From Coleophoma eucalyptorum (lineage: Eukaryota > Ascomycota > Leotiomycetes > Helotiales > Dermateaceae): a stretch of 64,000 nt of DNA. Positions 1 to 41,455 of the stretch are shown here, piece after piece. The DNA is taken from assembly GCA_026120035.1 (NCBI GenBank), contig JALRME010000042.1, positions 186,001 through 250,000 of the forward strand, in the 5' to 3' direction. The notes beneath the pieces were generated by a model. That model was not told the DNA's origin. It saw nothing but the letters and a program-made list of their open reading frames with translations, and did not search any database. The position numbers and the translations under genes were made by a program. Positions within the stretch are counted from its first letter, which is position 1. Each line of letters starts with the position of its first letter.

Positions 1-3000
1 TAGAAGGCTGGGGTCTGTTGGTGTTGGGTCTTGTAACATGTCCTGATTACCGATCATTCCAAGCATGCGGACCAGATTCGCCATCACCGTCGTTTGAGAA
101 GGGGCGGCAGAACTTTGTCTAGGGTTATATGAAGAGGAACCTTGTCCGTTGCCAGCCGGATTGGAGAGCGCGGGCAAGATGGCAGAGTGGCTACCGACTC
201 CGGAATTGGGCTTAGCAAAAGGCGCCGATGTGCGAGTATTCAAAGACCCTCTAAAATTCTTTCTCGTGGATGTGTAGCGGTGCTGAGCAGTATTTGAGTA
301 GCCAGTTGAGACGGGTGTTTCTGGGGCTAAAGGAAGTGGTACAAGGGAAGTCTGCGGTTGTTGCTGGGCCGGATATGTCGCGTGATCATTTTCAACAGTG
401 TTGAGATCATTTTGATCAGCTCCTTCAAGGTCAGCTACCGGCGAGTAGTCGACTACAACATCATCAGAGTGTCCTGCAGGTATATCACTACCAGACTGCT
501 TGTGAAGACGATGCTTTTTACAAGTTTCTGAAGTAGCAAAATACTTCACGATCTTATGGTTGCTTTCCATCGTTGCTACAACCGATGCATCGCCACTCCT
601 GTCAACTATGATAGCATGACTTTTCAAGTCATCAAGCTTCATATATGAATCAAATAATTTAAAGGGATTTGCACCCATTTTGCAAAGGAAATCAACACAC
701 TTGAAGCTTCCGCAAGATGCCGCGATATGAAGTGCTTTATCAAGGGAAGCCATCGTTTCGAGCGAACCGGGTTGCTCTGAATTCATTAGGGAACTTAAAT
801 TGACTAAGTAGCGGAGACATTTGGCATTCCCAAACATAGCAGCATAGTCCATTGGAGTCAAACCCGTGTTTGAGGTCTGGGAGAGTTGCTGACTGCCTTC
901 GTGAAGAAGGATTTCTACAGCCTGGTGGTGACCGCCCCGGCAAGCTGCATGTAGGGGGCTTCTACCAATGTCGTCTGTCAATTCAACACTTGCATCCAGA
1001 GAGATGAGAGCTTCAAGGGCTTCGCAAGAACCTGTAGCAGCAGCATGCCAGAGAGGTGTCCTGCCATAATTATCCACAACATTGATATAGTCCAACCTGC
1101 CTTCATCACGTAGACGGGCAATGGATCGGATTGCTCCAACATTGTTAAAAGCTGCCGCCCTATGAAGCGGTGTTTCATCATACTTATTTCGAGAGAATAG
1201 GTATGAATACCTTAGAAGATCCCCAGATAACTCCCAGAAGAAGGAGTGCTCATACTCAGAGTCCAAAGAGGAAGTCGCGGCAAGATGCAGGGCCGTCTCA
1301 AAATGGTCTGTGGTCCTCTCATTGGCCAACTTATCGGCCATTTCGTCATCATGCTCTTCGGAAGAATTCCAACATTGAGCTTTGATTTCTTTCCATACTG
1401 ACATGTTAGAAAGTGCAGAGACGTGAATTGCGGTCCATCCATTCCTTGTGGCAAAACAGGGATCAGCACCGCTATGGATTAGGAGGCTAATAACCTCCAT
1501 TGAACCTCCCACTACCGCCCAGTGCAATGGTGCGAACCCGTATAAATCCGATGTGTAGGTATTGAGAGGTGTTCCTATACTCAATAACCGCTGTACCTCA
1601 ATCACGTTACCGCTGAACGATGCCAATGCCAGTTGTTCTGGCTCCGCCTTCAACGTTCCGTCCCTCACACGGGCAATAAACACATGTAGTGGTTTCATAA
1701 AGATATCAATACTGGTCTCTACGCCAATTTCAAGTGATCGTGGTTTGCCTCGGACAGGGAGTGGCTCTATCATAGAGGTGACATTATCAGTGAACATGGA
1801 ATCTGTACCGTACTCCTGCCAACAGGGCCCGGTCATTGCCCGCAGCTGGAAATCGCTTAGCTGAGAGGCCTGCATCGTATTTTGCATCTTATTTTGGATT
1901 GAGGATGGCTCTATCTCCCTTGTGGTGAAGATTTCCGGCTTGATAGACATTGAAATCGAGATATACAGACGTCCCTGGAGTTGCATTCCTTCTACCGTTG
2001 CGTCGGTCATCAAATTGGCATCATCTCCAAGTGAATCCCGAAGCATTGCTGAAGAGGTGATCGACTGATTTCTTTCTGTCAAGTCCGTAACCTTCTGATT
2101 GATCATAGAAAGTGTCGATTCGAGTGAGTTTCCTTGAAAAGAACGTTGGAAGCACCATCCCTCCCATTGCATCGCGTTCAGGCGCCTAAGTCCAAACACA
2201 ATGTCAACCTTCTTCTTTAATGCAAGACTCTGAAATCGGAACACACCCATAGCCTGGAGCTTACGAGAGTACTTGACTTTCATTGTCATGGTCGCAGAAT
2301 TCCATTGGCGGGAAGGGTAAGTCTCAGTTAACTCGTAGTGTTCTTGGCGATTTTGACTCTGAACTTCGGAGCGCGTATGTGATGGCGAGACGGTAAACTG
2401 TGGGAGGTTATAGTAGACTGGGTCCTGTCGGACATAAATGGTTCGATACCCCTCAAACTCGGGGAACTCGGACTGTAACGGGGGCAGACGAATTCGGGAC
2501 ATGGTCTGGAATCTGGCATACTGGTCTTGCGAAAGCCGTCGCAGAAGTATTGCGGGGCACTGATATTGGTCACCAACTCGAACGAAGCAGTCCAGAATTG
2601 CATAGTAGTCTTCCTCCATAGAAACACCGTCTGATTCAAGGACAGGTCGGAGATATAGCTGAACGCGAAGACCGTGGTTCGTCATACCAGACGGCGCGCT
2701 GGCATAGACGGGTGAAGGCGGTAGAGGCTGTATTTCTCCCGTGTCTCTGAATTGTGCTGGGGAGTGCGCGAGTAGACCATATAAGGTATCGGTATCTTCG
2801 GTATCTTCGGTATCGTCGACTGAGTTCCACGCATACAACGACTGGTCATCAGAGCGCTGGATAATCTCCTCCTGCAACCGGGTGAAGGCACGATGGCCTT
2901 CTCCATACAGAAGGGGCATGTTGACTTGGAACAGACCCATCAAGCAGTAGGCTGTGTCTTCCAGTCTAGTAGTTTGACGATGCGATGCCCACTTCATACG

Positions 3001-3609
3001 AGTTGAGATACTGAGTTGCAGTGGATCAATCCGGGTATCCAAAACTTCGCCGTCGATTCCCGTGACATCGCTGATAATCTCCATGAACAAACTCGGGTCA
3101 TTTCTATATCCCAATAGACTCCAGTCCTTGGCAAAGAAGTGCACAGCTTTGGGTGCGATAAGTTCTTGTAAGGTCCATCCTCTAGTAAACCAACGACTGC
3201 GACGGAAAGTTGAGTCAGGCTTGGACCAATCTTCCTCCGCGGTTGGTTCGACGTCGGAGAGAAAGGCATAACATTCCTCTGATCGCTGGTACCAGAAATA
3301 CATGGAGTTGATAGCCTCAGATAGCTCAGCACTGCTTGACTTGTCAATGCAGCAGGTATCGATCCAGAGGTAGGAGAATCCTCTCCTTACCGCTAGAGCG
3401 GCGGCATCTCTTACTTTGGAAAAGCCCTTCTTGTCGGCGATTGCTCGTTTACGTTTGTCGAATGTTTGAGGCAGACCCCCTTTCATGTACGACAAGTCCT
3501 GGAGGCTAATCTCCTCATCGCTCCAGGTGTGCGATAGGATAACATAAGGTGGAATTTCATCGTCACGCACATCGACGAGCTCCAGTGTGTTGGCGTCTAC
3601 AAGCCGCAT
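1..3609 (-). CDS. HET-domain protein with C-terminal ankyrin repeats (C-terminus off the left edge)
   Basis: One uninterrupted frame of 1203 codons starts at 3609 and is still open at base 1. The N-terminus is a classic heterokaryon-incompatibility (HET) domain: it opens MRLVDANTLELVD, then shows PPYVILSHTWSDEE, YLWIDTCCIDK, WFTRGWTLQELIAP and, near residue 240, the LEDTAYCLMGLF block typical of HET-E/HET-D-like proteins. The middle 400 residues have no domain I recognise. Ankyrin repeats follow (FAPLHWAVVGGSMEV, NGWTAIHVSAL, YDETPLHRAAAFNN, YGRTPLWHAAATGS, IGRSPLHAACRGGH), then a low-complexity Ser/Pro/Gln tail. Known role of the family: HET domains trigger cell death after non-self recognition. 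Which signal the ankyrin part reads is unknown. Family certain; intronless structure likely. Confidence 0.93.
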   Translation of the reverse strand, partial: MRLVDANTLELVDVRDDEIPPYVILSHTWSDEEISLQDLSYMKGGLPQTFDKRKRAIADKKGFSKVRDAAALAVRRGFSYLWIDTCCIDKSSSAELSEAINSMYFWYQRSEECYAFLSDVEPTAEEDWSKPDSTFRRSRWFTRGWTLQELIAPKAVHFFAKDWSLLGYRNDPSLFMEIISDVTGIDGEVLDTRIDPLQLSISTRMKWASHRQTTRLEDTAYCLMGLFQVNMPLLYGEGHRAFTRLQEEIIQRSDDQSLYAWNSVDDTEDTEDTDTLYGLLAHSPAQFRDTGEIQPLPPSPVYASAPSGMTNHGLRVQLYLRPVLESDGVSMEEDYYAILDCFVRVGDQYQCPAILLRRLSQDQYARFQTMSRIRLPPLQSEFPEFEGYRTIYVRQDPVYYNLPQFTVSPSHTRSEVQSQNRQEHYELTETYPSRQWNSATMTMKVKYSRKLQAMGVFRFQSLALKKKVDIVFGLRRLNAMQWEGWCFQRSFQGNSLESTLSMINQKVTDLTERNQSITSSAMLRDSLGDDANLMTDATVEGMQLQGRLYISISMSIKPEIFTTREIEPSSIQNKMQNTMQASQLSDFQLRAMTGPCWQEYGTDSMFTDNVTSMIEPLPVRGKPRSLEIGVETSIDIFMKPLHVFIARVRDGTLKAEPEQLALASFSGNVIEVQRLLSIGTPLNTYTSDLYGFAPLHWAVVGGSMEVISLLIHSGADPCFATRNGWTAIHVSALSNMSVWKEIKAQCWNSSEEHDDEMADKLANERTTDHFETALHLAATSSLDSEYEHSFFWELSGDLLRYSYLFSRNKYDETPLHRAAAFNNVGAIRSIARLRDEGRLDYINVVDNYGRTPLWHAAATGSCEALEALISLDASVELTDDIGRSPLHAACRGGHHQAVEILLHEGSQQLSQTSNTGLTPMDYAAMFGNAKCLRYLVNLSSLMNSEQPGSLETMASLDKALHIAASCGSFKCVDFLCKMGANPFKLFDSYMKLDDLKSHAIIVDRSGDASVVATMESNHKIVKYFATSETCKKHRLHKQSGSDIPAGHSDDVVVDYSPVADLEGADQNDLNTVENDHATYPAQQQPQTSLVPLPLAPETPVSTGYSNTAQHRYTSTRKNFRGSLNTRTSAPFAKPNSGVGSHSAILPALSNPAGNGQGSSSYNPRQSSAAPSQTTVMANLVRMLGMIGNQDMLQDPTPTDPSLL

Positions 3610-4738
3610 AGCTCACATCACCACCAGAGTACGAGGGGTCAACTGAGGGATCGTAGCCCAAAGTAGCTGAGAAGGCTACAAGAGGTTGCTCATTCCATCC
3701 GACGTCCAGCTTGCGACATATGGACGAAGATGCTGGACGCGATTGTCGCAGTTGCTGTTGAACAGGTTGTCACCGAGTGGCCCTGCTATCCCTAGTCAGG
3801 TGTTTCCTTCATGGTCATTGTAAAGTCGGGTGGCTTAGGATTACGGCCTCTAGCGAGAGCGGTGAGCTGAGTTGGGCTGGGCTGGACTGGACTGGCTCGC
3901 GCACCACCTGATTTCAGCCGAGCGACAGCTTTCTAGTTGGTGATTGCGAAATGGCTGTAAGTTCAACTTTGGCAATAATAGGTAAATGTTCTTTGGATTT
4001 AATCAAGCTTTCAACTCTACATGCTATAAATTCGGCTTGATGGTCTAGTAGAAGCCTCTATGGCCTCCAAATATGATTCAATAGATGACAAATCTTGCCA
4101 TTGGATAATATTGGAGAACCATCAGCCCCAAGCCCAGCCGCCAGGGTCCGCCATCTGGTATCCTTAGATTATGGAGCAATTATCCTACTGCCTTTCCTAA
4201 TTCTCTCATTCAATCTCCTTTGATTTGGGCATATTCGCCGAAATAAATAGAGAATGGGCGTAAGTTAGTGTATAGGTAGTAGTTCTATGGTGTTTTGGTG
4301 AATTCTGGGAAATATGGGTAGAAATATTGCCCAATCAGGAAAGTTGCCGCCTATGCCTATTCGGGGTCTATTCAGACTTTTGCACCTCATTTTAGGACGG
4401 TGAACGCTTAGCGATGGGCTGGGACATCTAGGAGCATGAAATTAAGGTAGAACGAATCATTAAGCTTATTGATTTAATTTTCGAGCGAATACAGATCGAC
4501 TTCTAAAAGGAGCTTGAACGCTATATTAAAAGATGACCGCAATGTTGTTATATCTCTCAATTAGGTATAGGGCAGAGTAAAATGACCCGCCACTTCGTAC
4601 ATTGATTGGTTTGAGCCATTAGTACCATACTTATCTAACTAACGTCGCACCTGTCGCCCTTCGTTCCGTCCTATTTATTCTGATATCGTCTCCCACTCAT
4701 GTTCACCTATCAACACCAAATTCAGAAAGGCTTGATGC
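3610..4738. other. intergenic, divergent promoters
   Basis: This stretch lies between the divergent HET-ankyrin gene and the F-box-like gene. No ORF with family similarity is visible. It is AT-rich after about 3960. It should hold both promoters, but I can name no specific site. Confidence 0.5.
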
Positions 4739-6940: not shown

Positions 6941-7785
6941 GTGAGTCACCTGTTAGAAAGTCGAGAGAAGCAGCAGTGGCAAGTATCACTTCTCGGGAAG
7001 GATGTGAAGATTCGAAAACAGACCGAGAGATTGGTTAAATTTCTCCTTTGGTCTGACCCAATTGTCAAGAACGCTGTCAGTACTCAGCCATACGCAGCAC
7101 TTGCGTGGTCTGGTGTTTCATTACTTCTTCCAGTAAGTATATAGCCCTTCGAACTCCTCTGCAGATGCTTATCTGGGCAGCTTCTTACGAGAGGTACTAC
7201 ACAAAATGAGGCAATGCTAGAAGGCCTTAATTCGATCAGCGATGTTCAACTCTATTGGAATTTTAGTGAGAGGACGTATCTCCAATCGCTACATCGACAA
7301 AACTACCAAGACCTTGTCGAACCTTTAGCAAAGCTGTATTCTCACATTCTTGAATATCAGGCCATGGTCATATGCCATCTATCCAGCGCTCAGCTCTCTC
7401 GCGCATGGAAAGACGTGGCCGGTGGGAATGACTGGGCTGGCTTATTAGAAAAGATCAATGTGTTAAGCAAAAGGTGCAGTGACTGCATCCCACAGCTCAA
7501 AGAGGTAGAGCTGCGGGAAAATCGAGACAGTCTTTTACAGGAAATGCAGCAGTCGCGGGATATTAACGATAAAATCCGACGCATCTTCAAAAACCATGAA
7601 GAGCAGAGCCAGAGAAGATACGAGGATCAGAAGGAAAGAGAACTTCTTCATGATCTTGCATCTGATTATGAAGTCTACAAAAACTTCAACGAGAGAGTAA
7701 AGGGCACCTGTGAGTGGTTTTTCAACGATGACAGATACCGCAGATGGCGTGACAGCGGTACTTCTAATCTTCTCTGGGTTACGAT
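6941..7785 (+). pseudogene. NLR (STAND) relic: NACHT N-terminal domain only
   Basis: Two exons (6941-7132, intron 7133-7180 GTAAGT..GCAG, then 7181 onward) encode the helical domain that precedes NACHT in fungal NLRs: VKNAVSTQPYAALAWSGVSL across the splice to LLTRGTTQNEAMLEGLNSI, then a coiled-coil stretch around KNHEEQSQRRYEDQKER, and finally WRDSGTSNLLWVT. In intact relatives LLWV runs straight into the Walker A loop. Here similarity stops at about 7785 and the frame ends at 7876 without a P-loop, NACHT or repeats. The 5' side is also lost: the frame is open only from 6923, after an in-frame TAA and without an ATG. This is a beheaded and truncated gene flanked by AT-rich DNA. Confidence 0.8.
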
Positions 7786-8045
7786 TTTCACGTGTGTATG
7801 GCATATGCTGACGTCCAATATCGATATCCCCACATTAACCAACCCAAGATATTTGGTTTTGCGTTACTCGGCTTAGAGAGCTCGGTTGCCAGTGCATCTG
7901 AACATTGCACAATAACTGATCAACTTGCAGCGCTTGACTCACTAGCTTCTATTCGAAGGCTAGAATTTTATTATTATTTATAAGACACAAATATTCGGTA
8001 CGACGTAAGAATCTTTCTTCTATTCTATCGCTCAAAAACAACATT

Positions 8046-21510: not shown

Positions 21511-24500
21511 TCAATCAAGCTCCTTATTCCTTATGTCCTGTAAAATACCCTTGAGCTTTTTCATCGGCACAGGCTTAGTCAAGAAGAGGTCGATGCCACT
21601 TCTGAACGCCTCCTGCCTACTTTTCGTGGATGCCGCGCCAGTAAGAGCAATAATGATTGTAGCTGGAAGATTTTCATGTTTTTCGAAGTCCCGAATTTCT
21701 CGGGATGCCATTAAACCATCCATAACGGGCATCGAAATATCCATAAAAATGAAATTGAACGTGCCTCGAGCAGCCTGGTATTTGTGAAGCGCTTCTAGAC
21801 CGTTGATTGCAGTGTCATGGGGAATTTTGAGCTTTTCCATGTATGCAACAAGAAGCTTAGGACTGTCAGCTGCCTGAAATAGCAAATGGTAGGATCTAGA
21901 GCTAGCTGACCTTCAAGTTGATTTCGTTGTCCTCCACCAGCAACACTTTCAAGTCGGCACTGTTGGGAGCTGCATTCACTGGGGCGTCTCCACATTGTCG
22001 TACTGGCTCCTTCTTAGCTGGCGGGGCTCGTATTGCTACCTTCTTGGTTTCCTTAGTTACTGGCGGAGAGACAAGTGGGAAATATGACTGCGTCGGGTCG
22101 GGAGTTTGTGTCAAGGCACGATACAGGGAATGAGCAAGTTTCAGTGGCCCATAACTGTTGAAATCAGTAATTTGACCATCGGTTAGACGATTAAACTTAC
22201 GGCTGTGAGATATAGAAAACTTGAACCTCCTCAAGCTTGTGAATGCTATGGGTACTGGCATCAAATGGATTACAGAGAACGAGGACTGTCGTGGGTTTAG
22301 AGCTATCAGCGATAGACCGAATCACATCTCCTAAGCTTTTATTTGGACTAATACCAGCTTCTAGCAGCAAGATAGTATCGGCCTCAGAATTATGAACTAG
22401 GTTTGGAGAAATCTCCATCCCAAGCCAGTCGGTGCATATCGTGGAGATGGAAGATCTGAGATTTATAATAGCTTCAGCTTCCGGAGGCAATATTCCCGTC
22501 GGCTCGTCGCCAATGATGGGGTATGCATCGAAAGCCATTAGACAAGCCTTAAGCCCCTTTGTTGCTTCCCGAGCTTGCAAAATTACATCCGGAGTTTTCC
22601 CCTCGACTGTGTCAGCACCTTTCAACTTACCCAGAGGAACAGTAACACGAGCTTCTGTTCCAACTCCCTTCTCACTCGTAAAATGGATAGTACCACCAAG
22701 AGTGCGAACGATTTCTCGGACAATACTGAGACCGAGACCAGTTCCTGTTGCAAGACCGTCTTCTTGAGTGAATGGCTTATATAGCTGAGTCTTAAGGAAG
22801 TCGTCAGAGATCCCCTTGCCAGAATCGCGTACAGTCAGTATTAGTCTCGGCTCTGGAGTTCCATCCTTTGACTTGGTCCCTTCATCGACTTGGATGGAAA
22901 TATGCACAAAACCATGATTTGTATACTTCATAGAGTTGCCGAAAATATTCATCAATATCCTTCTCCACGCACCAGCGTCTAAGTCAAATTCCCAGTTTTT
23001 GCGCCAAGCAATATCCACAATGATTGTGACAGGAGGCTTTGGAGTCTCAGGTGTTAAAGGCGCGGATATTGAGCCTGAAGAATGCCGGTGTGTAGTTGAC
23101 GAACTCGGTAGAAATTTGTTGATGCGATGACCGGCGTATACGCTCTCGGTTACCTCTTCAGCCAACACAGAGATATTCTCCATCTCTGTAAGGCCATTTT
23201 GTGCCCTTAATATTTTTTGTGACCGTGAAAGATCTCTTGCCGATTTGATGATCTTCCTTCTTACTCTACCTCGATCCTTCATTTTCCTATTCACTTTGGA
23301 AAAATCAAGGACATGATTAATAGTATCAAGAAGAGTGTTTCCGCAAGCATGAATTGTATTAACCATGTCAGCCTGCATTTCTGTCATTGTAGTATCCTCA
23401 AGGAATTCTACACTTGCAAGAACTCCATGGAGTGGAGATCGAAGTCTGTTGAAATTAGTAATTTCATAGCGCACAAGTAGGCTCACTTACTCGTGGCTGA
23501 TACTCGAAGTGAAGTCCACCTTCATCTGTGCAGACAATATTGCAGATATTCTGGTAAGTTCGGCCATGATATTGTTTCCAAACGCAGCTATGTAACTAAC
23601 ATCTTCTTGTGGGCATAGCACTCTCATTGGTGACGTAGACCATATAAAGCTTCCTGCAATCCAAACTTCTTTTGCAGGATCCCAGAGTGGGAAGAATACT
23701 GCCGATCGTACCCCTGGCAAAGCCTTTGCTATACACTCAGCTTCCTGTCTATGAGACATTCTTTTCTTTCTTGAATGATCGTTGATATGATGGTTCGCAT
23801 GTCGGGGATGACTTCTTTCGTGGGGAGTTGCGACATCAGTTGATGTGTAGCCATCTGATTCGCTGGCTGAAATTGATCCATCATCATCAAAGTTGAACAC
23901 TTTCCCTGTTGGGTATCTTTTCAACAGCCTATGGAGTAAAGCCTGCGGCAGGGATTGGAGTTCATTTGATGGTGCATGACTATTGAGACTTGAACGAGTC
24001 CGAGTTGAGTACCCCAAAATATTGCAGGTTTTCTCCAGGCTCGAAGGATCAGATGGTGGTGTCAAGCGAGATGGATGCGCCATGCTGTCTCTCCTTCGGA
24101 AGTCATCGTCACTACCTGACGTCGTTTCCGACACTCCATTAATCGCCACTTCTGGTGGTGCTTCATTTGGTCTCCGCGCCGAGTTACCCATTGTTCCAAC
24201 ATCGGTCTCATAAAATATAGCACCATCGAGGTTGATAGCTTCACGGATGAGGTTAGCTGCTCGTGAGAAGGCACTTTTCATATCAGTTGACACTAAAGCT
24301 TCTTGTAGCTTCCTGCCGGATGTTGCATCAAAAGACTCTGTATTGCGGTTGGCATCCAGAACAATATGCGGGGTACTTGAACCAGATCCATGCGTCGTGC
24401 CCACAGTGGGGGTTGAGGCTGCTGTCCAGCGTTTTTCAAAAACAGAGTCAAGATTTGATGGATCTGCACTTGTTGCTGTTGACTGCTCCGCAGTTGTGCC

Positions 24501-25582
24501 CGATGAATCAGTGCTGAGCCTAGTCACTGGTGGCCTTCCAAACTCGTAGCTGTTAAGTCCAGCAGTCATAGGTGGAGGGCTATCCAGATTATGGACCCGA
24601 GTATGAGCATTCTCTAGACCTTGCATCCAAGTATCAGGAGGATCTTGCTTCCCAAATTCAATATCTGCCGCATGTTCCATATTAGACGACTCCGGTATTT
24701 GGCCGTCCACTTTTGGGAGCTTGATATTTTGCCCTCCTTGGCTTATCCACCAGTCTCGTAAACTAACATGGTCAATATTGTATACTTGCAAAAAGGTGGA
24801 GCAAATACCTCGACTTCCCTTCAATAAAGAAAGTTAAAGCTTTTACCATCCTCTCCGATCGATTGCTCTTCTTCTTAAGATTGATTGACTTGATATGATC
24901 CATAACAGTAGTCGCCATATCTTTGAGAAATTGAAGCTCGTCTTCAGTCGGAGCATCTCGTGTGACAGTGCTCGCTACCATGTACATCCCGATGACATAG
25001 CCAGCTGCAGTTCGAATCGGATATGAAACAATCGACCGTACAAATGGGTGACCAGTAACCAGAGGTTTATTCTTAAAACGGTCATCCTTTGTCAAATCAC
25101 CAACGAAGAAATATGGAAGTGACAAGCGGTCAGTACTTGGGCGTTTGAGTCGATCCATTATAGTTGGTGTAAAGGATAGATCGTGCTCAGCCTTCTCTCC
25201 AGCTCCGAGGACAAAACCATCTTCTTCTTTATGTCGACTATCATCTTGCAAGGACAAGGACTTTGCTGATTCGGCCAGAACATAGTGTCTAGTCCTACTC
25301 GATAGAGTTATGAATCCACGATTACCGTTCAGGCGAAATGCCCCAAGCTGGGCAAACGCCGTCAACGAAACATCATGTGATGATCCTTTCCTGTCGAGGA
25401 AAACTTCCTTATGGAGGTGAACGGATGTATCGAGGTCTGGCTGAAAATACCTATAGAGTAAGTGTAAGGCACACTTCGGTATCGAAGGTCATATATCGGA
25501 GTTTTAGGCTTGGCGGGCGACAGGAAATCGAGACTACTGACCGAAATAGCTCTCGCTCTCGAGCTGTATCTGATAGATGCAT
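21511..25582 (-). CDS. hybrid histidine kinase with N-terminal GAF region
   Basis: Six exons (25542-25582, 24809-25450, 23491-24762, 22201-23445, 21911-22154, 21511-21855) give 1262 residues. Order: an N-terminal sensory part starting MHLSDTARERELFRYFQPDL, with a GAF-like domain (YFFVGDLTKDDRF, VRSIVSYPIRTAAGYVIGMY); a long variable Ser-rich section; a second GAF-like segment (GVRSAVFFPLWDPAKEVW); the HisKA dimer with SISHELRSPLHG (phospho-acceptor H651); the HATPase with NSMKYTNHGFVHI, DSGKGIS and GTGLGLSIV; and a C-terminal receiver with VLLVEDNEIN and FIFMDISMPVMDGL (D1187) plus LTKPV. It should relay phosphate to an HPt protein such as Ypd1. The last intron has two possible acceptors; the one at 21856 restores the family sequence NLKLLVAYM and is preferred. 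All signature residues are present, so it is probably active. Confidence 0.92.
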
Positions 25583-35943: not shown

Positions 35944-37063
35944 CCATCAAACTCCAAGGTTCAGTTACTCACATCTCATGTCGGTATAGCCTCTGTATAG
36001 GGCTTGCTGGTTTGATCAGCTCGGGGTATTCGGATCTAACGGAGGACGTTGGGCCCCGAACTAATAATCTAAAGCGGGCTACAACTTCAGCAACATTGGT
36101 CACGGCTGCAGTCAGGCAAGGAAATACGTGTTTGTTCAAAAGTTGAAGCATGGAGACATAACGCCGCCAAAATCCTTCGGATTGGGTTCTCTTCGATTGC
36201 GGCTTAGCATTAAAACCATTAACCATATTCACCTTTACGCCCTGCCCTCGAGGAAGTCAGTGGCATAATATTTTACTATGATGACTAAAACTTCCTAACA
36301 TGGAACTCTAAACACCTAGAAGGATGTATCAATAGTTGTCATCGATAGAACGCCGCTTGAGACACCTAATGCTAGAAAGGTTCCATTGCATCGAGCGTGA
36401 TGAGAAACTCGGAGTAGCTTCCTTCACATACATCAATATAAGTTAATGATAGTCCTACAAAGAAACATCTCGAACACCATCAATGATGTCTCTATTCGCG
36501 TGCAATAAATTATGGGTGCCCAAATAAAGCTCAGAAACCCGGTTTGATATTTATCACCCCCCTTCCCCACCCATGGCTCGCCTTACCATACCAACTCTAT
36601 AAATCTCAAAACTGAAACAAGAATGGTAGACAGCAGGTCTAAGCCTATTATCTTCAACTCTTACAGCCCTTCTTAATTATCTTAGATTGTTAATACATTT
36701 ATGAGGGTTTACACAGTATTAAAAGGCTATAGTTCTTTAGCATAAACAAGACTTCTCTTGGCCTACTCTACGGTCGCTATAAATTCCGTGGTGCTGGCTA
36801 ACTAGGCATCTGGCCCGAGGGAGTATCAGCTTGAGAATCTGACCTAAAATCTGACGCTGGTACTTCGTATTTGACTGAGCTCTCTACTGCGCCCCGTCAC
36901 TTGCATATAGACTAGCCTTGGACAGCCTTGCGACCCCAGCACATATGCTTTGATGAAATCCATAACTTCCCGTTTTAATTCCCGAAAGCAAAGCTGACAC
37001 TAATAACTCATCTCAGTACGTAGCACGAGATTATCCACGTCTAGAATCCCTCTCTCAGAAAGA
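35944..37063. other. intergenic
   Basis: No coding similarity found. It holds the promoter of the 37064 gene. Confidence 0.5.
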
Positions 37064-38366
37064 ATGCAGAGGTCCCAGCTCCGAGAGGCGTTGGCGCACA
37101 GCCTCGGGTTTGCTGATTATCCGCAAAACACCTTGTCGCAGCCTTATCTCAACTACATCGAGAACCGGCACATGAACCTCGGCACCGTGGAAGAATATTT
37201 GCAATTATTCAATAAAGTCGTTTACGAATTTTCGCAGAGAGGCCCTCCCATTACAATTCGTGCATATATAGACGCTATTTGTAATTCTCGTGAACAAATC
37301 TTCGAGGGTACGCAAGATGAGGCGGCGCGGAGGGAGCTCGTTACCGACACGATTATGTTTATCATTGGAGTGTGGGTCACAGCTGGAAGCTATTTTGTGA
37401 AATCAGGTGGGTACAGACAGGTTGAGCTGGCGTTTTGTCTCCAAAATGGGAAGAGTGCCGCTGTAGATTACAGCGCGACGGCATCGGATTCAACACTTTC
37501 GGAATTGCTGGTCGGGAGCGGCTTAGTACCAGCTGCGTCGGAGACGGTGGGTATGTTTGGCATACCTACGACTACTGCAACTACTAGCAACTTTGCTGCG
37601 ACAAGCAAAGCAAATATACATGTTGTTGAATACTCCCGTCTTGATTCCATCGAATCTCTCTCGATCAAATCTACGACTCTCAATGCCTATACTCTATCCT
37701 TGCTCTCCAACACCCGCATCTCCTGGACGCTTAATTTCTCAAGACATCTCCTCCTCACTCCGCTTGCAGGTCACCATGTTCTGGAGCTATATGCAATCCC
37801 CTGTGTGTTGAATGGAAGATCCCTCGCGAGAGTGGGAATCCCAGCTGCGCTTATTAATGAGATCCAAATGTCTTATTCGATCCTTTTCAATCCATACGGA
37901 CGACGATCACTGCATGCGAAGTACGGTAAAGTGGTGGGTCTGCACATGTGGTGTTGGTGTCGCTCGTGCAGCGCCAGCCGTATGAAAAAGTGTGAACTCA
38001 ATACCCTGAGGAGGAAATCGAAATCGAGGAAGAGAAGAGGTGGAAGAGCGAAGAGCGAGTTCGATCCGCTTCTGGTGAACTTGATGGAGGAGCAGGGGAC
38101 AGAGGACTGGAGCCCTGATTTGTTTCCGTACCTGTGGCCGAGAATTGTTGAATTGGAGGCACATTTACATTCAGCGAAACCTTGGAACTTCTGGGTGCTG
38201 TTCGCAGATCGGAGAGACACTCTTCAATTCTGGACCTTTCTGTGAGTCTTTGTAGTCATGAAATATTATGGCCTATGCTGATTATGCTAGATTTGGTTCC
38301 GTCATTCTCCTTTTGACGATTCTGCAGGTTGGGCTAGGTGTAGCTCAGGTGGTTGGATCATTCTGA
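37064..38366 (+). CDS. fungal tail-anchored protein of unknown function
   Basis: Two exons (37064-38241 and 38291-38366; intron GTGAGT..CTAG with a CTGATTATG branch region) give 417 residues. The body has no named domain; it contains YLNYIENRHMNLGTVEEYL, a basic segment (RRKSKSRKRRGGRAK near 320) and the end block DLFPYLWPRIVELEAHLHSA followed by PWNFWVLFADRRDTLQFWTF. The second exon supplies a single hydrophobic helix (FGSVILLLTILQVGLGVAQV), so the product is probably C-terminally membrane anchored. The D-R-R-D-T-x-Q-F-W-T-F block plus a tail helix recurs in many uncharacterised filamentous-ascomycete proteins. It is convergent with the Ubl-peptidase gene, 32 bp between stop codons. Function unknown. 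Confidence 0.8.
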
Positions 38367-38398: not shown

Positions 38399-41300
38399 TT
38401 ACAAAATAACATGTTCCTTCTCCAGCTCTTCTGGAACTTTAAAGGCACCATAAAATGCGACGAGCCCTCTTTTCAATCTTGCCTCCAGATCACGACCTTC
38501 CATCTCATAAGTTTGGACGTTCCCAGATCTCTGAACAAAGGATTGAAATCCGACCACTCCAAGTCCATCCGTGCCATCTGATCTTGCCCCTTGAGCATAG
38601 AGAGCTAGCCCACTTTGCCCACCCGGTACAGGAAAATCTGGGTAAACACGGTATAGTATTGATTCTGAAACCAGGGATTTCCATAACGTGATATCTTCAT
38701 GTCGTACTCTACGTCGTAACTGTTGGTCGTCTTCGTATGCAGAGAGTTTTTGACGATTGAGTAAAATGCCTTTTCCAACAATCTGACAAATTATTAGCGC
38801 TGGCACAGCACAGTGGTGATAGAGCTACACACCAGACACTCTGAATGAGTGAAGCTCGGTAAGGTTCTTGCCTCTGAGGTTTCGTTGTGAATAAGGATAT
38901 GCAGATTACTTGGAGTCCGACGAAGATTATCCCAGCTGGATCGGGAAAGCCATCCAAGATTTGAAATGGGAGATAGTATATGGAGAGTATCGCGATCGTC
39001 CAAGGGTCGCACGAGGCTAATATCGTGAGAGAATCCTGTTGGGTATTCCTCTGCCTCGTCATCGAAGGTCTTCCTCACCATACCAATCTGCCATAGTTCA
39101 GCAAGTTGGGTAAAAGTCATATAGTGGCGGTTTGCTCACCTTAACTCCTTGAACACAGATCTCTACGTCTTTGTGCCAATTTTCACTTAAGGTTGATTTT
39201 GAGCTTCTGAACAATCGACGAAGTAACGGCCCTCGATCCTTGGCGAGTAATGACTCTGTTATAATGTGGGACGACATGGTCAGATAGATCTTGCCATTTT
39301 TTACTGTTTTAACCCCGATTCTGCCACTGTGCCGGGTCTGTGATTTAAAATTTGTTGGTCGAGACTCAACAACACTCTCTAACTTAATTCTAGAGCGGGG
39401 GTTTGAGACTCTTTGGGAATGAGATGATTGGGCATGGTTTCGTGACGTAGAAGCCGCAGGTGTGGTTGGCTGTTGAACTCGAGAATCCCGTCCCGCTGTA
39501 GCAGCTAAGTTTTGGTTTATATAACAGACCTTTAGCCCACCAAAATAATTGGGCTGGTGCGAGTAAGCCCAGTCGTAATTAAAGTTCTCTGGGACTAGAA
39601 GTTGAAGTAGTCCATTTAAGAGTAAATAGAATCCAGATATCTTAGGAAATTCTCTAAACACCTTGATGACTGTTTGAATCTCTATTGGGGCCCGAGGATC
39701 AATTACCCGTGGGAATGGGTCTGGAGGTGGTGAAACTGCTCCACTGAAAGGGTAGTGGTATGCTACGGGTATGACCACGGGACGTCCGGCGATTGTTAAA
39801 GGAATGCCATCTCGCAGAACCTTGTGACTCGGGGTACAGGTCCAACAAGATTGGGTATATTCAATATCCCATCTGAAGGACTTAGGGAAGTGCGGCCGCA
39901 GAAGCTTCCAGTTATCACTTGAGAGCTGAGTAAACTGACCTGCAAGGAGATGTATTCCATCGCTATTTGTATCAGGATTGCTTGGGAGGATTTCCGGTCC
40001 TGTAAAAACTCCATTCTCGTCCGATGAAGGGTTATCTGACAATGACGATAGCTCATCCAACTCTCCCGAATGCGTTTCTGATTGTAGCTCGTTCTGTGGA
40101 TTTACATCTCTTGCGCCCAAGGAAATGAATTCTTCCGTCAAATCATACATCGCCATGTCATCTTTAAGATTCGGTGTCTTGGTTTCCACCATGAGCTTAG
40201 ACGATTTCTTGATATCGTACGAGTCTAACGTCGAATCGTCGTCAAGTATGGCTCCTTGTAAGGTGATAGAAAACTCCGACCTATTATTAGGAAGCCTCTC
40301 TGGCCAATTGAGGATTATCGTGCTCTTTACATCGGCGATCGTGGTGTTACCTGGTAGGACAAATCCAGAAAGAGCAGTGCCATCTGGCAGTTCCAAGAAC
40401 AGCTCCATTTGTTTGAACCCTTCGAAGTGAACATGCAAGATCTTCCCATGACCAATCCCATAGCTAGCTAAACTTTCACCGTCTTGTAATTCGCGGCCAA
40501 GGTTGCGGATTTTTATCTGTGCAGGTAAGTATTGTTTCTGCTCTGATATCTGTTCCTTGATCTCTAAAATGGTGCTAGACGCTTGCACCGAAATAATATC
40601 TCTTTCTCCACCAGAGAAGTCCAGGACAATGCCTATTTCCTTATCTGCTGCAATATCGTTCCCTTTCTTGCTTGTTACTTTTTTATCCGCTGAAACAGCC
40701 TCCTTTCGATTTTCTGAGGTTTCTTTACTTGCTGCAACATCGTCGCTTTTCTTTTCTGGTAGGACTTCCAATCGCAATCTGCAATTTGGGTCAACGAAAC
40801 AGTCAGCTAGGATGTCGGTATCTCTGAGGGTTCTCTCATTCAGTAGGAATTGCAAACGATCAGCAGGGATGCCAATCTCGGTTTCCATAAGAGTCTTCAG
40901 CCGTGAAATCGAATCGGATGATATGACAAGGAGAGGATAAGTTACATGTTGATGACCGAGTCGCTCAACATGTATGGTATAGGGACGATTATCGATAACT
41001 TGAAGTTCAACGAGTAATGATTCCGAAACGCCCAGATACCGAAGTCTTGCAGTAGTTTGTGACGGCAGAACGAATCCCTCTACCACAAGTCGCTGGTTTG
41101 ATATGTCAATATCAGTCGCGAAGCTGATGGCCGCCTTCAGACCAGTAACAGAACTATCTTTCTCCGCGTCAACCATAATGATGGTACCATCTGGGAGCTT
41201 TACAGGAAGGCAAATATGCTCATAAGAGAGTGGGAGTGTTTTCGTGATGAGATGCATTGTTGCTCCATTTCTGACTCCATAATAGCCCAATTTTAAGGAT

Positions 41301-41455
41301 GCTTCCAGGCTTTTGCCAGAATATATTATTCTGTATGAATGCGGTTCAAGTCGCCATTTCTTGTTCACCAGTTCCGCGAGTTCATCGACAGAGGCATTTT
41401 TGTCAACTTCGGCCTCCAGTTGCCTACCCTTCATATCTCTTATGAAGATCTTCAT
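38399..41455 (-). CDS. five tandem ubiquitin-like domains fused to a trypsin-like serine peptidase
   Basis: Three exons (39140-41455, 38833-39087, 38399-38782; introns GTGAGC..GCAG and GTGTGT..TCAG) give 984 residues. Five Ubl domains: about 1-70 (MKIFIRDMKGRQLEAEV), 80-153, 159-232, 274-344 (with SILEIKEQISEQ-like strand/helix) and 350-424 (MELFLELPDGTALSGFV). None ends in Gly-Gly, so they are not processed to free ubiquitins. Residues 500-650 are an unknown domain (GQFTQLSSDNWKLLRPHFPK, YLLLNGLLQLLVPENFNYDW). The C-terminal 270 residues look like a trypsin fold: VKNGKIYLTMSSHIITES (H730), GFSHDISLVRP (D794) and PVPGGQSGLALYAQG (GQSG, S914), in the right order and spacing. I chose the ATG at 41455 because it begins the first Ubl; the frame is open upstream but has no ATG. 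The peptidase assignment rests on motifs, not alignment. Confidence 0.82.

Follow-up and report, generated by a model that had tools for sequence, protein, structure and literature searches.

Does a single gene in the 64,000-nucleotide stretch of Coleophoma eucalyptorum DNA analysed here (the window) join a tandem array of ubiquitin-like domains (Ubls) to a trypsin-like peptidase, as a first-pass annotation had proposed, and what might such a protein do? The gene is real and unusual, and it belongs to a family of peptidase-like fungal proteins whose front ends are exchangeable. Splicing of 41455-39140, 39087-38833 and 38782-38399 (minus strand) yields a single 984-residue reading frame (Table 1), so that the proposed fusion of the array with a triad-bearing region stands. 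One 839-codon open frame (41617-39098, minus strand), whose first ATG is the start codon of the gene, takes in all five Ubls as well as the middle domain and His730; hence the joining of the array to the His box is not an artefact of the gene model, and gene-model fusion is ruled out for this part of the protein.

The two introns anticipated earlier are retained in the model. For verification we used a family alignment of 125 rows, that is, the 984-residue protein and 124 relatives, with per-site counts covering the rows that have a letter at the site. Intron 1 is, by these alignments, independently backed: in 37 of the 125 rows the match to the family profile ends at its position, presumably as these rows are unspliced frames, and the relative P0001 from Coleophoma cylindrospora (71% identity to the 984-residue protein over the full length and 82% over residues 480-984) aligns across the junction without a gap. 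At this same position, the annotated relative P0017 carries additional residues. Seventeen of the 37 rows have at least 300 residues upstream of the conserved module of companion domain and peptidase region; if these rows are taken as unspliced frames, their N-terminal fusions would therefore lie in the DNA. In the annotated relatives P0004, P0018, P0023, P0073 and P0083 fusion through annotation is possible, and P0023, with its HET domain, is treated as suspect.

Table 1. Features of the gene, in window positions; residue counts in the last column refer to rows of the family alignment.
Feature	Position	Strand	Basis
Whole gene, 984 residues, three exons	38399..41455	-	Spliced translation
Exon 1, residues 1-772: Ubl array, middle domain, peptidase start with His730	39140..41455	-	One open frame
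Intron 1, 52 bases, GT-AG	39088..39139	-	Splicing; ends of relatives' matches
Exon 2, residues 773-857, contains Asp794	38833..39087	-	Gapless against P0001
Intron 2, 50 bases, GT-AG	38783..38832	-	Crossed by P0001 without a gap
Exon 3, residues 858-984 and stop, contains Ser914	38399..38782	-	Spliced translation
Ubl1, residues 1-75	41231..41455	-	Pfam, alignment
Ubl2, residues 79-154	40994..41221	-	Pfam, alignment
Ubl3, residues 157-234	40754..40987	-	Pfam, alignment
Ubl4, residues 273-347	40415..40639	-	Pfam, alignment
Ubl5, residues 348-428	40172..40414	-	Pfam, alignment
Companion domain, residues 495-650, ~155 residues, without database name	39506..39973	-	Family alignment
Peptidase region, residues 689-984, split by both introns	38402..39391	-	86% identity to P0001; triad kept
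His730 codon	39266..39268	-	His in 120/121 rows
Asp794 codon	39022..39024	-	Asp in 87/88 rows
Ser914 codon	38612..38614	-	Ser in 86/86 rows

The Pfam ubiquitin model (PF00240 type) matches five stretches of the 984-residue protein with 157.7 bits against a cut-off of 25.4 and a whole-protein E of 6e-47; the borders of the Ubls are our own, cut by alignment. The domains had been described as standing in a row, which is correct as to their number but not as to their continuity, since a low-complexity linker of ~38 residues (235-272), mostly missing in P0001, separates Ubl3 from Ubl4. A C-terminal Gly-Gly is absent from all 15 Ubls considered (the five of each of three proteins, with borders set by alignment), in agreement with the earlier observation, and this supports the view that the Ubls would be fixed parts that cannot be conjugated. 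Ubl1 is the only Ubl of the protein that is hydrophobic at all three Ile44-patch positions (Met8, Ile44 and Ile70 in ubiquitin numbering, compared to Leu8-Ile44-Val70 in ubiquitin itself), and it also has His68.

Ubls 1-5 are 22-28% identical to the ubiquitin of their own genome. Between the 984-residue protein and P0001, Ubls in the same slot have 50-77% identity and those in different slots, 15-28%. Compared with a further relative, P0024, same-slot identity is 22-33%; three of the five Ubls find their best match in the same slot, and for the other two it is tied for best, so that the array and its slot order look old. The first Ubl of P0024 is 51% identical to ubiquitin. We read the array as derived from ubiquitin, and as one that would be open to binding but not to attachment. 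Among the relatives gathered, the array is joined to the module in P0001 and P0024. A further search that used all three Ubl-bearing proteins as queries brought no new member, its two matches being P0001 and a plant polyubiquitin-like protein; NCBIfam models match P0001 in the Ubl part only (rad23, below its cut-off).

The domain of some 150 residues that had been noted between the array and the peptidase proved to be conserved in the family, and occurs together with the peptidase region. This companion domain has no Pfam match in the 984-residue protein and chance-level matches only in relatives. Identity to P0001 is 79% in the companion domain and 86% in the peptidase, with the Ubls at the 50-77% given above.

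In the peptidase region, the trypsin-like order of His730, Asp794 and Ser914 recognized earlier is a family trait: H, D and S are found in 81 of the 82 rows readable at all three sites. The sole exception at the His position is P0085, and at the Asp position, P0108, whose match stops near intron 1. Within residues 700-984, no His other than His730 reaches 97.5% conservation in the 82 readable rows, and around the nucleophile Gly912 is present in 86 of 86 rows and Gly915 in 85 of 86. The sequence contexts M-S-S/T-H-I/V, H-D-h-S/T-L/I (in most rows) and G-x-S-G resemble trypsin-type boxes. In trypsinogen the zymogen switch is the Asp194-Ile16 pair; the position preceding Ser914, readable in 24 rows, is always Q, Y or H and never Asp, which makes activation of the trypsinogen type unlikely and favors control through other domains. 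These data also bear on the possibility that the peptidase is dead and its fold has been retained as a non-catalytic binding scaffold. The literature matches listed, which hold no activity report for any member, would be compatible with it, but a scaffold would not need a triad, and the triad is kept across large divergence; we regard this reading as highly improbable.

The peptidase half has no Pfam match in the 984-residue protein or 41 relatives, no match to PDB sequences when family profiles are used, and no NCBIfam or PADLOC match in four relatives. PF08192 (peptidase S64, Ssy5) does not match the 984-residue protein or the 41 relatives; a search of the own genome with PF08192 was silent, and so was its control set. 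Trypsin_2 (PF13365) has no match in the 984-residue protein, and in the own genome it matches at one other locus only. Profiles of HtrA-type sequences were built twice, from 6 sequences (12 loci tried) and from 9 distinct sequences out of 15 loci (three yielding none and three, repeats), and their comparison with the family stayed at chance level, the best local match having Prob 0.2 per cent.

When the alignment to HtrA is forced with the -M 50 setting, all three triad residues fall in register, with a score of 15.63. As a control, columns were shuffled with the triad columns held and, at -M 50, with 0, 1 or 3 flanking columns held in addition. The three residues came into register in 0, 1 and 5 of 200 such shuffles, respectively, and 104, 92 and 93 of 200 reached a score of 14.6, a threshold that came from the -M first run and is hence slightly low for -M 50. 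With -M first, only Asp and Ser are in register (score 14.64), all three being in register in 0 and 2 of 150 shuffles, of which 56 and 63 reach the real score. The triad register is thus suggestive at most of PA-clan homology. As no sequence match links the peptidase half to known PA-clan peptidases, its chymotrypsin-like (PA clan) fold is one that we infer, and we consider it likely.

Judging by alignment, the companion domain and the peptidase constitute a family without a name in the libraries searched and with swapped N-termini, which is new here. The search with residues 480-984 returned 26 proteins, and from the subsequent profile search the best 120 of 167 relatives were used; both protein searches scored only the ~7,990 candidates sharing most words. 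The species looked up (n = 13) comprise 11 Pleosporales, one Zopfia (Dothideomycetes, order unplaced) and one Coleophoma (Helotiales), and no second copy of the gene was found in the own genome. Neither the family nor the protein is named in the titles or abstract openings of the literature matches listed, a set with subscription journals mostly outside its scope.

At least 80 residues precede the module in 87 of the 125 rows, and these N-termini constitute 26 groups by BLASTP single linkage, the largest of 46, 10, 3 and 3 rows, with 19 singles; as some of the singles are disordered tails, the true number of domain types is below 26. The group of 46 is a transcription-factor-like mosaic of bZIP, PHD-like, HLH, GATA, Zn-cluster and SH3 parts in varying sets, several of these domain matches falling under the Pfam cut-off. 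It also includes an RRM (P0091), carrier proteins (P0092 and P0105) and a partial 14-3-3 (P0108, just below the cut-off). Several members of the group of 10 have WxWD repeats (P0023, P0099, P0116). The Ubl-bearing proteins also lie outside the mosaic group, and so do tandem PH domains (P0073), the kinase-like part of P0083 and a GRF zinc ribbon (P0097), together with C2H2 fingers in P0026 and a membrane region of CorA type in P0120, both recognized by eye. A weak match to the Crinkler header domain (Pfam, E 0.005) is seen in one of 41 members.

That over half of the N-terminal rows (46 of 87) are of the transcription-factor-like kind would suit a housekeeping role in the control of stress or transcription, with an SltB-type protease that its front end steers to everyday substrates, for instance transcription factors or proteins carrying ubiquitin, the more so as SltB and Ssy5 are described as processing transcription factors (PMC4557415, PMC11011638, PMC12958826). 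The patchy presence in the species listed above and the turnover of front ends are, however, ill-suited to a core function, and we consider such a role rather unlikely.

The same front ends can also be read as baits. In such a bait-type immune sensor, the N-termini would copy host regulators that are targeted or altered by invaders, and tampering with them would free the peptidase and lead to death or defence, as with the integrated decoys of plant NLRs. This agrees with the resemblance of many front ends to regulators (transcription-factor mosaics, RRM, SH3, tandem PH, ubiquitin-like domains, carrier protein), and with P0083 from Parastagonospora nodorum, where a kinase-like front end, just below the Pfam cut-off, is joined to the module and lacks both the HRD-type catalytic Asp (HGAIKP) and the DFG (YFATT), the kind of degeneration expected in a decoy. 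Counting against it, some front domains retain their sites: in both P0092 and P0105 a carrier-protein domain (PF00550) precedes the module, and the attachment-type serine is kept (GGDS and GGNS). In two proteins of Alternaria alternata there is a link to HET domains, as P0023 has a Pfam HET domain upstream of the module, and what follows this domain in P0023 aligns to the P0018 N-terminus with 83% identity over 231 residues; but P0018 itself has no Pfam HET match, P0023 lacks the His segment, and this front end may be a true fusion or the product of merged neighbouring genes in both models. Integrated decoys have been proposed in fungal NLRs (PMC12258605), and gasdermins are described as being under the control of fungal proteases (PMC10197012). 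On balance, bait-type sensing seems unlikely.

NLR domains (NB-ARC/NACHT, repeats) have no Pfam match in the 984-residue protein, and none was seen in individual scans of 28 relatives (9, 10 and 9) or among 24 families over 41 members, these sets overlapping. The broader proposal of a non-NLR class of fungal cytosolic sensors, where the module would repeatedly capture host regulatory domains as baits, from Ubl arrays and carrier protein to a degenerate kinase and parts of transcription factors, and an attack would unleash the protease and a defence or incompatibility response, we hold to be decidedly unlikely.

In a quick tree of the whole alignment, P0026 falls into one set with the three Ubl-bearing proteins (SH-aLRT 100). 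Front-end labels on the tree were set by hand, P0090 being labelled WxWD though BLASTP groups it with the mosaics, and P0092 and P0105 being labelled apart though BLASTP links both to the mosaics. Over all rows there are 32 label changes as labelled, 31 with P0090 moved and 29 with all three moved; for the 67 labelled rows the respective numbers are 12, 11 and 9, and the rows classed as short or other could stem from broken models. Given a shuffled mean of 56 changes for the first labelling, the 29-32 changes indicate that front ends are clustered yet repeatedly changed. The deep joins of the tree are unsure, because several long branches meet there.

HET and NLR genes in the region had been taken to point to a possible role in self/non-self response. 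Indeed, a gene at 1-3612 (minus strand), ~35 kb from the peptidase gene and extending past the window edge, encodes a HET domain joined to a long array of ankyrin repeats, and a NACHT_N domain with a weak NPHP3_N start (just below the cut-off) lies at 7145-7873 (plus strand), ~30 kb from the peptidase gene; the latter is an NLR fragment or exon. Between and beyond them, the recognized genes encode an FMN dehydrogenase, a dioxygenase, a histidine kinase, a luciferase-like monooxygenase, a P450, transporters and an aldo-keto reductase. The histidine kinase pieces (GAF, HisKA, HATPase) at 21514-25488 (minus strand) probably belong to a single hybrid kinase, whose 3' end (21514-21912) looks receiver-like by eye.

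The own genome has at least 150 scored HET-domain matches, some partial (254 candidates), in 45.3 Mb, a very large set, and with 150 to 254 matches spread at random, ~20-33% of places should have one within 35 kb. With so many matches in the genome and the HET and NACHT genes 30-35 kb away, the location is no evidence for an immune role, and the argument from context is weak; the role itself can still be entertained, chiefly because the N-termini of the relatives are swapped. The P0083 and P0023 front ends are stronger hints than the location, though they may be products of merged neighbouring genes. The bait reading is likewise not helped by the surroundings of the gene, as the HET context is uninformative, the gene is single in the genome so far as found, and no executioner gene was recognized beside it by Pfam in a search that had no gasdermin model. 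A single-exon frame of ~394 residues at 37061-38245 (plus strand) is convergent with the peptidase gene, with 154 bases between the 3' ends; it has no Pfam match, a chance PDB match only, and no second copy found in the genome.

The account that we prefer, and consider just about probable, is that of an intracellular, regulated PA-clan serine peptidase, in which a fixed half of companion domain and peptidase is joined to an exchangeable N-terminal regulator or sensor, here the five non-conjugatable Ubls. The layout, the family, the conserved triad and the differing N-termini are observed. The Ubl array and the companion domain would keep the peptidase, if of the PA fold and active as its triad suggests, restrained or positioned. 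A component of the ubiquitin pathway could then bind, pull on or degrade the array, or the peptidase could cut itself free; since the front half is ubiquitin-like, handling by the ubiquitin system would be the natural trigger. The catalytic part, once set free, would cleave a downstream protein.

This account is supported by the conserved triad, by the open exon shared by Ubl array and His box, by the Ile44-type patch of Ubl1, by the larger divergence of the Ubls from those of P0001, compared to the companion domain and the peptidase, and by the constancy of the module while the N-terminus varies (26 groups in 87 rows). By analogy, SltB, Ssy5 and FAM111A, as described in the sources cited here, may serve as precedents for a peptidase governed by other domains. 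Counting against this account are the lack of a match to any solved or curated peptidase in the libraries searched and an HtrA profile score that is no better than that of shuffled columns. What emerges is a fungal family, nameless in these libraries, of probable intracellular peptidases whose front ends can be exchanged; if the front ends are sensors, they would allow for a direct test of which tampering releases which protease. As the layout has precedents, family-wide swapping of N-termini is the more interesting part.

Peptidases of the S8 family have the catalytic residues in the order D-H-S. Fungal HET-Q2-like and CHAT proteases, which cut gasdermins in cell death and have varied extra domains, are described as serine S8 or caspase-related, with ankyrin, TPR or WD40 partners (PMC10197012), unlike the C. 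eucalyptorum protein. Ssy5 (S64, PF08192) is an intracellular fungal chymotrypsin-like signalling protease with the triad H465, D545 and S640 and a regulatory prodomain that is removed by ubiquitylation and the proteasome (PMC12958826); it differs in having PF08192, which matches neither the C. eucalyptorum protein nor the 41 relatives.

SltB of Aspergillus nidulans, reported as restricted to Pezizomycotina, consists of a pseudokinase, a conserved region, a non-conserved linker and a trypsin-like domain, and for its C-terminal part alone its authors found no similar proteins (PMC4557415). Autoproteolysis frees the protease from the pseudokinase prodomain, and cleavage of SltA follows (PMC11011638). 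By published description, not by sequence, SltB resembles our protein in being fungal and in placing a front end and a conserved region ahead of a trypsin-like domain, a probable one in our protein, and a degenerate kinase-like front end is common to SltB and the relative P0083.

The first-pass annotation knew of no characterized protein with this layout, and here it has to be corrected, as human FAM111A and FAM111B have two N-terminal UBLs followed by a trypsin-like domain, the triad of FAM111B being His490, Asp544 and Ser650 (PMC9798293). In FAM111A the trypsin-like domain is activated by dimerisation (PMC10920703). The likeness, as far as these sources describe it, comprises tandem N-terminal Ubls, a C-terminal H-D-S peptidase and an intracellular location. 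The differences are two UBLs against five, a peptidase described with Pfam Trypsin_2 against one with no match to this model, and the companion domain of the C. eucalyptorum protein, none being described for FAM111A/B in the accessible parts of these sources. If our account is true, the fungal protein would be a second, probably independent case of Ubls joined to a trypsin-like protease: the gain of the FAM111 UBLs has been dated between marine invertebrates and vertebrates (PMC9798293), and the likeness is thus probably convergent.
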